DNA of 64,000 nt from Larkinella humicola (GTDB taxonomy: Bacteria > Bacteroidota > Bacteroidia > Cytophagales > Spirosomataceae): assembly GCF_008727875.1 (NCBI RefSeq), contig NZ_VTWS01000003.1, positions 558,001 through 622,000 on the forward strand. Direction: 5' to 3'. The translations under genes and the position numbers were made by a program. The notes below the pieces were generated by a model. It did no database searches and had not been told where the DNA came from. It worked only from the letters and a program-made list of their open reading frames with translations. How positions within the stretch are numbered: position 1 is the first letter of the stretch; the number at the start of each line of letters is the position of its first letter. This document shows positions 42,663-44,285 of this stretch, in pieces.

Positions 42663-43124
42663 TCAAAACTGCTCCCGGCTCATCTCCCGCGAAACATCCC
42701 GTTCCTTGATCGAATCGCGTTTGTCGTATAATTTTTTCCCTTTGGCCAGGGCAATCTCCAGTTTGGCAAACCCCCGGTCATTGATAAAAAGCTTCGTTGG
42801 GATGATCGTCAACCCCTGATCGGTTAGTTTATTGACCAGCCGTTTCAACTCCCGCTTCTGCAAGAGCAGTTTCCGGTCGCGCAGCGGTTCGTGGTTATTG
42901 TAGGTCCCTTCGGTATACTGCGAAATGTGCATTTGTCGGACATACAACTCTTCTTTGGAAAATAAACAATAGGCATCTCCCAGGTTCACTTTTCCCTGCC
43001 GAACCGATTTGATTTCGGTACCTGTAAGCATTATCCCGGCGGTAAAAGTTTCCAGAAAAAAGTACTCAAACGAAGCCCGGCGATTCCGGATTTCGATGTG
43101 TTTGGCCAGTGTTTTATCAGACAT
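42663..43124 (-). CDS. smpB: SsrA-binding protein SmpB
   Basis: SmpB carries tmRNA to stalled ribosomes for trans-translation. The 153-residue protein has normal length. It starts MSDKTLAKHIEIRNRRASFE and contains GIMLTGTEIKSVRQGKVNLG and the basic C-terminal tail GKKLYDKRDSIKERD. I do not find the ssrA (tmRNA) gene nearby. Upstream lies a structured-RNA candidate with its terminator, then a -7 box at 43231-43238, so smpB seems to have its own promoter. Confidence 0.97.
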   Translation of the reverse strand: MSDKTLAKHIEIRNRRASFEYFFLETFTAGIMLTGTEIKSVRQGKVNLGDAYCLFSKEELYVRQMHISQYTEGTYNNHEPLRDRKLLLQKRELKRLVNKLTDQGLTIIPTKLFINDRGFAKLEIALAKGKKLYDKRDSIKERDVSREMSREQF

Positions 43125-43230
43125 ACTTATAGTGTGGTCAATGTGGTCATCGGAAAACCGCCCCTGTGTTCTTCCCGGAACATTCGCGTGTAGGAAAACG
43201 GGCTGACAAACCGACTTTTAAATACTAATT

Positions 43231-43238
43231 CAAAAGTA
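43231..43238 (-). promoter_or_regulatory. Candidate -7 box of smpB
   Basis: TACTTTTG on the minus strand lies 107 bases upstream of the smpB ATG. The expected -33 position falls at the T run of the terminator just upstream. Confidence 0.5.
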
Positions 43239-43256
43239 CCGATTTGTCAACAAAAA

Positions 43257-43282
43257 ATACCCCGAAGTAATCTCCGGGGTAT
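43257..43282 (-). terminator. Terminator between the RNA candidate and smpB
   Basis: On the minus strand ATACCCCG (43282-43275) pairs with CGGGGTAT (43264-43257), 8 bp with a 10-base loop, followed by a T run. No protein gene on this strand ends here, which points to a non-coding transcript or leader upstream. Confidence 0.85.
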
Positions 43283-43298
43283 CAAATGATTCCTGCAT

Positions 43299-43422
43299 TA
43301 TAAACATTTTCCTGGCGAAGCCGGTGTTTTAACCGCATCCAAAAAGATACGGCGTACAGCCGAATCACAGCCTCAAGACCCTTCTGTACACACCGGCATT
43401 CTCCAGGATATCTTCATTTATA
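43299..43422 (-). ncRNA. Candidate structured RNA upstream of smpB
   Basis: The 564-base gap between smpB and the ompH-like gene has no credible protein gene. Its minus-strand RNA folds by eye into nested helices. They are 43416-43422 with 43299-43305 (7 bp), 43403-43407 with 43311-43315 (CCTGG/CCAGG) and 43390-43397 with 43320-43327 (GCCGGTGT/ACACCGGC, 8 bp). The last one encloses two arms: 43384-43389 with 43354-43359 (GTACAG/CTGTAC) and 43346-43352 with 43333-43339 (7 bp). A terminator follows at 43257-43282. It does not match tmRNA, SRP RNA, RNase P RNA or the plain rod of 6S RNA. It may be a stand-alone small RNA or a smpB leader; no strong promoter is seen. Confidence 0.5.
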
Positions 43423-43637
43423 CACACCCTGAGCGTGTACTAATCGCTAAAAATTAAACCTTATCTTTCCAGACTAACTAATATTATTTAGAAAGATTAT
43501 TGCATTGGATGGACCGAAATGACTTGTCGATACATACAACATCACCCTACGTTTAACAAATTTTATGCCGTAGTGCTGCCAACCTTCTAAAAACCCGGCA
43601 TGAATCTTTATTTTGTTGGAAAAAGAACATAAAAAAA

Positions 43638-43664
43638 GCTCCACTACCGAATTGGTAGTGGAGC
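43638..43664 (-). terminator. Terminator after the ompH-like gene
   Basis: A perfect 11-bp stem, GCTCCACTACC (43638-43648) with GGTAGTGGAGC (43654-43664), has a 5-base loop. On the minus strand a T run follows. It lies 24 bases past the stop. Confidence 0.93.
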
Positions 43665-43688
43665 ATAGTTCCGGTAGGTGAAAAGGGG

Positions 43689-44285
43689 TTATTTTTTGGT
43701 CTGCTTCTGCTGGTACTCTTTGTTTAAGCCGCCGATGATCGATTTGGTTGCATCCAGCGTGGTATCTGCAAAGAGAATGCCGCCCCCTCTGGAGTAGCCC
43801 ATCACAAAGTCGTACTGATTTTGTTTGTTGACTTTCTTCAGATAATCATGAATCTGATTGTAGAGTTCTTCGTTCTTTTTTTGCTCTTCTTCTGCCAGTT
43901 GCTGAACCACCCGGTCGCGGTACGCTACCAAATCCTGTTGTTTTTTTTGCAAAGCCGCTTCCGTTGCCCGGCCCTGTTCCATCGTCATCGTTTGGGCCCG
44001 TTGCTGAAAGAAAGCCACTTCATTTTGCAGTGAACGTCCCTTGTTATTCAATTCGTTGTCAAGCTGAAACCGTTTGCTTTCCAGCACTTTCCGGGTGTCT
44101 TTAAAATAATCGTAATTGGTCAGCAGGGAGTCGACGTTGACATAAACCGTCTTGCGGACCGGCGCCGATTTCGTTGTAGTGGCAGCAACAGGGTCTGTAG
44201 TGTTTTTATCAGAGAAGTGCAGGTAGTATAAAACTGCTACAGCAACCGCCAGTACGGCGTTCAAAACAAGGGATGCGTTTTTCAC
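43689..44285 (-). CDS. OmpH/Skp family periplasmic chaperone
   Basis: The 198-residue protein has an N-terminal hydrophobic segment (about 4-22) that may act as anchor or signal. The OmpH domain (about 45-190) begins VYVNVDSLLTNYDYFKDT, followed by a long Gln/Glu/Lys-rich coiled coil and the conserved YDFVMGYSRGGGILFAD end. Skp-like proteins hold unfolded outer-membrane proteins in the periplasm. Here it stands alone, not next to bamA, with its own promoter and terminator. Confidence 0.87.
   Translation of the reverse strand: MKNASLVLNAVLAVAVAVLYYLHFSDKNTTDPVAATTTKSAPVRKTVYVNVDSLLTNYDYFKDTRKVLESKRFQLDNELNNKGRSLQNEVAFFQQRAQTMTMEQGRATEAALQKKQQDLVAYRDRVVQQLAEEEQKKNEELYNQIHDYLKKVNKQNQYDFVMGYSRGGGILFADTTLDATKSIIGGLNKEYQQKQTKK

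Follow-up and report, generated by a model that had tools for sequence, protein, structure and literature searches.

Within the window, by which is meant the whole stretch of 64,000 nucleotides of Larkinella humicola DNA that was analysed, an ompH-like gene and smpB lie on the minus strand on either side of a gap measured at 564 bases. Read along that strand, the gap presents in turn a terminator-like site, a sigma54 element, a 9-bp hairpin, a three-way junction, a terminator, and an smpB promoter-like site. A preliminary description had reported a gap of this length containing an intrinsic minus-strand terminator, and the present analysis bore this out, placing the terminator at 43283-43256. 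The relevant features are as follows.

43689..44285, minus strand: ompH-like gene, the upstream neighbour (named as in the preliminary description)
43638..43664, minus strand: terminator-like site after the ompH-like gene and upstream of the RNA gene (terminator scan)
43556..43569, minus strand: sigma54 (RpoN) -24/-12-type site GGCATAAAATTTGT, GGCAT-N5-TTTGT (pattern match)
43420..43440, minus strand: 5' hairpin of 9 bp (folding; two copies folded)
43302..43417, minus strand: three-way junction with the nested helices of P1 (folding and models; model core 43306-43412)
43354..43389, minus strand: P2 arm, GUACAG-AA-GGGUC / GAUUC-GG-CUGUAC (folding and covariation)
43367..43376, minus strand: apical loop UUGAGGCUGU (alignment of copies)
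43332..43353, minus strand: P3 arm with U-rich loop (folding)
43256..43283, minus strand: intrinsic terminator of the RNA, with 12 pairs and a T-rich tail (scan and conservation)
43231..43250, minus strand: smpB promoter-like site, TTGACA and TACTTTTG (TAnnTTTG), after the terminator (pattern)
42663..43124, minus strand: smpB, the downstream neighbour (named as in the preliminary description; relatives found by it)

The RNA had been assigned to positions 43257..43422, where it is indeed located, but that interval stops short of both the hairpin at 43440-43420 and the promoter site at 43569-43556. Because these two elements belong to the RNA gene, the latter probably spans ~43544 to ~43253, roughly 290 nt, the predicted transcription start at ~43544 being set by the usual distance from a -12 box. 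A 56-codon open frame with a GTG start (43474-43644, minus) spans the same region as the promoter.

Folding of positions 43253-43440 gave a free energy of -84.8 kcal/mol, compared with an average of -49.5 for shuffled sequences (z -8.25, with none of 200 shuffles as good), and positions 43300-43422 folded alone gave a z-score of -7.55. The fold confirmed the three-way junction proposed beforehand, in which nested P1 helices enclose two arms, P2 (43389-43354) and P3 (43353-43332). Of these arms, the one described as a 7-bp hairpin with a U-rich loop exists, but it folds as nine pairs. The 5' hairpin also forms in the L007 copy, where it is built from different sequence. Eight further copies of the RNA, including a second copy in genome G002, folded with z-scores of -3.27 to -5.39, and for the L019 copy one of 200 shuffles folded equally well.

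Relatives of the RNA were sought by successive searches, which together placed it in 26 of 222 genomes of the family and in 5 of 36 genera, namely Larkinella, part of Spirosoma, and three genera designated g3, g9 and g43. A DNA search recovered it from eight of the nine genomes of the genus Larkinella. A first model (R1), built from nine sequences and run on 200 family genomes, matched 18, thereby adding the ninth Larkinella and nine genomes of two other genera; a second (R2), built from the eight Spirosoma copies plus the g43 copy and run on all 222 family genomes, also matched 18, and added g9 (five genomes) and g3 (two). One further g3 copy, in genome G074, was missed by the models and found by the loop pattern. 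The designations Larkinella and Spirosoma rest on identity of G004, along 3163 bases, to the RNA-bearing strain Larkinella arboricola DSM 21851, and of G149 and G235 to S. validum and a Spirosoma metagenome-assembled genome, respectively. Over 390 genomes of the order, R2 returned 12 matches, all within the family; since that model missed seven of the nine Larkinella copies in the 222-genome run and G007 in the order run, and the order was searched with R2 only, absence of the RNA outside the family is weakly shown. The loop pattern matched in 40 of the 222 genomes, 25 of them RNA-bearing, and a reversed control pattern in 10. At the 13 extra loci that were checked (in 15 other genomes plus an extra match in G074, leaving out five places: G043, G159, G063, and two in G023), smpB adjoined none, 12 had no R2 match, and the other had one of E 0.52 away from the loop.

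Two alignments were used to assess covariation. The first (A6) comprised 14 Spirosoma, g43 and g9 sequences with 20 named pairs, P3 being omitted: 98.9% of cells were paired, a figure favoured by the choice of pairs after reading the folds of the same sequences, and pairing fell to 26-42% when the partners were slid. Seven pairs had changed on both sides, a number reached by one of 500 shuffles, and the covariation score was equalled by none of 500; further pair types showed no excess over shuffles (279/500). The second (A1), with eight Larkinella sequences, the second G002 copy and 36 pairs, was 96.0% paired, and five pairs, three of them in P3, had changed on both sides (21/500 shuffles); here also the covariation score was reached by none of 500 shuffles and further pair types did not rise above them (100/500). 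Spirosoma, g9 and g43 have an arm that corresponds to P2 and covaries. P3 is the most variable part in both sequence and length, and seems dispensable, as it is missing from the g3 copies L125 and L126, which when folded kept P1, P2 and the loop. In g43, a run of U follows the P1 stem almost directly. The conservation and covariation anticipated for relatives were thus found, and conservation in several genera, covarying stems and the fold z-scores together make a chance structure in a spacer a very improbable account of the locus.

The position of the RNA is as constant as its fold. It is adjoined by smpB in all 26 genomes, and in the 25 gaps measured (nine Larkinella, eight Spirosoma, five g9, two g3 and one g43) it lies between the ompH-like gene and smpB, on their strand; G074 (L240, G074:C40:1-2500) carries smpB at 71% identity beside a copy whose P1 stem differs in sequence from the others. 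This fixed position may reflect plain inheritance of gene order. Among 36 Spirosoma genomes, smpB was found in 34 and 30 gaps were examined, the remainder comprising two loci without an ompH match and two genomes without a locus; 22 of the 30 gaps were short (150-345 bases) and kept smpB with neither the RNA nor sigma54 sites. The second G002 copy (L029, G002:C79:114274-114372, minus), 85% identical over 79 bases to that of the window, lies elsewhere, downstream of, and in opposite orientation to, a gene named by eye as a hybrid histidine kinase, and showed no convincing sigma54 site.

The element YGGCAY-N5-TTG was first noticed by eye in the gaps and tested afterwards; the sigma54 consensus itself is independent prior knowledge. 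In the strict form GGCAYN5TTGY, it stands upstream of the loop on the RNA strand in every one of the 25 measured gaps (31 sites in 7255 bases), including all nine of Larkinella, with no occurrence on the opposite strand of the same gaps and none in the 5232 bases of the 22 Spirosoma gaps that lack the RNA. Shuffles of the gaps contained a mean of 0.19 sites per set and a maximum of two in 300 sets, a figure that overstates the surprise because the RNA copies are related by descent and the pattern was seen first. G074, examined after the shuffle test, has a strict site 106 bases before the loop, and a looser form, GGCAYN5TTG, occurred in 2 of 77 regions upstream of other smpB genes (mostly of 700 bases, 52,555 in total, many reaching into other genes). 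The pattern shows no enrichment across the 64-kb window (5 matches against 2.41 expected), so that the evidence for a sigma54 site is its kept place and not a single match. An extra strict match (43768-43781, minus) inside the ompH-like gene is probably due to chance. The sigma54 (RpoN)-type site is new beyond the preliminary description.

The host genome encodes one RpoN (PF04552, E 1.6e-54), in which the RpoN box motif ARRTVAKYR is present. It also gave eight strong activator matches (PF00158) and three weak ones, the latter being left uncounted as PF00158 also matches in all 14 control genomes. In another member of the phylum, F. psychrophilum, -24/-12 sigma54 promoters have been described and one tested by mutagenesis (PMC9723704).

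The arrangement of the sites differs among genera. In Larkinella one site is present, at a distance of 69-194 bases upstream of the loop. By way of contrast, 14 of the 15 Spirosoma, g9 and g3 gaps (eight, five and one, respectively, using the relaxed pattern GGYRYN5TTG) have two sites 119-121 bases apart, or 14 of 16 copies when G074 is counted; the fifteenth gap, that of the g3 copy L126, has TGGCTC at its distal site, 120 bases away, and in G074 a distal GGCTT-N5-TTGC was seen by eye 130 bases before the proximal site. The two sites of g43 are 108 apart. Hardly a conserved column occurs in the DNA between paired sites, and in the 14 two-site gaps the remaining spacers vary, from 54 to 108 bases between the stop codon and the first site and from 95 to 108 between the last site and the loop. 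The spacings of 108, 120 and 130 are separated by steps of roughly one helical turn, which would, from few cases, point to two DNA-bound complexes in phase. On that basis it is conceivable, if somewhat doubtful, that this is a new RNA family transcribed by way of two RpoN complexes held in phase and acting together, with the ten-base loop as the working part of the RNA.

As the promoter is a predicted one, it could be argued that the small RNA is transcribed by the housekeeping sigma factor and that the GGCAY-N5-TTG elements bind another regulator; a constant distance between paired sites would be compatible with operators. We regard this as improbable: the elements match a -24/-12 promoter in both boxes and in their spacing, on the sense strand only, and the motif TAnnTTTG, the Bacteroidota -7 consensus, precedes the loop in no more than 5 of the 25 gaps.

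At the other end of the RNA, the terminator scan found eight sites over 3000 bases where 4.2 were expected, so that any one terminator site is weak evidence by itself; the conservation of this one is not. A clear terminator follows the RNA in all nine gaps of the genus Larkinella and in all five of g9, while the gaps of eight Spirosoma, two g3 and g43 gave no clear intrinsic terminator, with weak or no matches. Between the RNA and smpB, TAnnTTTG was present in 17 of the 25 RNA-bearing gaps (8/9 in Larkinella and 8/8 in Spirosoma, one g9 match being too near smpB to count), and it also preceded smpB in 11 of the 22 RNA-less gaps.

These data bear on the earlier proposal that the RNA might be an attenuating smpB leader, which would connect it with ribosome rescue, or, more generally, a 5' leader in which RpoN-dependent transcription would read through and the structure tune smpB expression. 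Although the RNA lies directly upstream of smpB in all 26 copies beside that gene (the second G002 copy does not), such a role seems unlikely overall. In Larkinella it is disfavoured by an smpB promoter-like site that follows the strong terminator, and inspection of the Larkinella sequence by eye revealed no antiterminator pairing; g9 shares the strong terminator, and in Spirosoma smpB is kept in the 22 of 30 gaps that have lost the RNA. The leader reading may still apply in Spirosoma, g3 and g43, the groups in which no clear terminator was seen. A candidate leader peptide, MKISW..., readable in L001, was rejected on finding that the in-frame ATG is missing in L004, L007 and L008.

The most constant part of the RNA is its apical loop. 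The string UGAGGCUGUG is exact in 26 of 26 copies beside smpB, a count to be read in the knowledge that gaps were sorted by this string but that 25 of the copies were found by models not requiring it, and the ten-base loop NUGAGGCUGU is kept while the surrounding stems covary. A loop preserved letter by letter on covarying stems fits either pairing with a target RNA or binding by a protein. In g9, part of the loop is hidden in the lowest-energy fold. In three of the five g9 sequences (L120-L124), TGCCTCA, complementary to UGAGGC of the loop, occurs right after the proximal sigma54 site, and the loop is also able to pair with a GCUUCA that follows it; a switch between exposed and hidden loop is possible in this genus.

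Two candidate partners were considered and rejected. The string TCACAGCCTCA was found at 15 places in eight of the nine genomes of the genus Larkinella, nine of these being the RNA itself and three of the other six being one sigma54-activator gene in three close genomes. This gene (L196/L211, G000:C2), which carries the 11-base complement of the loop, is flanked by genes that, named by eye, look like miaB and lptE. Among 29 orthologues, however, the protein motif IIHSLS is fixed and its codons wobble, the exact 11 bases being present in three only, and four RNA-less genomes have the motif with mismatches to the 11 bases, as do most RNA-bearing ones; the complementarity was accordingly dismissed as a codon coincidence. 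The second candidate, a Spirosoma downstream element AAACCTC...TTTCCGGTGTT, is also present in RNA-less Spirosoma validum, so that it more probably belongs to the promoter region of smpB.

A search of the nine Larkinella-genus genomes for the loop complement at its full length of 11 bases found no conserved mRNA site. This outcome is one of the points in favour of an RNA that binds or decoys a protein, by titration as with 6S or GlmY, in place of base-pairing; others are the strongly kept architecture and the presentation of a kept loop on a rigid arm, as would suit a protein-binding site. Against a 6S-like role, RF00013 gave no match in the window, nor in the host's own genome at E values up to 10, and the RNA, though in the same size class as 6S, forms a three-way junction and not a rod. 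Protein binding is a branch of the interpretation favoured below, with which its probability overlaps, and is rated as the less likely branch, albeit a serious one; pairing with a target RNA is slightly favoured over it.

Comparison with known families returned nothing at the RNA, in agreement with the preliminary description. Searching Rfam at the gathering score over the whole window yielded five tRNAs elsewhere; at E values up to 10 over positions 43100-43720 only sub-threshold matches were obtained (best E 0.39), and the RNA was likewise without a match in 11 relatives. The suggestion of a new small RNA is therefore well supported by occurrence at the same place in five genera, covarying stems, promoter sites, a terminator of its own in Larkinella and g9, and the lack of an Rfam family.

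Among sigma54-dependent small RNAs, Qrr and CrcZ share with this RNA the control of a regulatory RNA by RpoN, here predicted, but differ in phylum, fold and loop, and neither matched here in Rfam. The nearest working model is GlmY/GlmZ of the Enterobacteriaceae: an activator drives transcription of GlmY from a sigma54 promoter and the gene neighbourhood of GlmY is kept (PMC6075780), which parallels the predicted RpoN control and the fixed position of the RNA here, although no Rfam relation was found in the window or in 11 relatives. The same source describes for glmY three activator sites of the form TGTN12ACA together with an overlapping sigma70 promoter, whereas the present RNA shows, in three genera, a pair of sigma54 sites whose spacing is nearly constant. 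Within the Bacteroidota, Rfp18 of Flavobacterium psychrophilum is likewise a structured, conserved small RNA of a species with sigma54, and is not called sigma54-dependent in the cited part of its account (PMC9723704), the comparison being by description only. GibS of Bacteroides thetaiotaomicron is also conserved and intergenic, and acts in trans, but it is described as having little structure for the most part, a seed that is single-stranded at the 5' end, and a promoter of the -10/-30 type (PMC7366714), in contrast to the rigid junction, loop and sigma54 sites found here. No RpoN-controlled small RNA family in Bacteroidota was found described in the open-licence papers searched.

Taken as a whole, the locus probably encodes an RpoN-controlled, trans-acting small RNA that presents an invariant loop. 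RpoN polymerase would wait at the site until an enhancer-binding activator fired; once the activator was switched on, the minus strand would be transcribed from ~43544 to the terminator at ~43253. The RNA would then fold and end at the terminator, the three-way junction holding up the arm with the loop NUGAGGCUGU, through which, as the putative working part, it would act in trans, either base-pairing with one mRNA or several or acting as a protein-binding site.

If this is true, the RNA would represent an RpoN-controlled small RNA family in Bacteroidota, in which the invariant loop on covarying stems offers a direct handle for target finding, and the nearly constant spacing of the two sites, between which the DNA is hardly conserved, raises the question of how sigma54 promoters may work in pairs.
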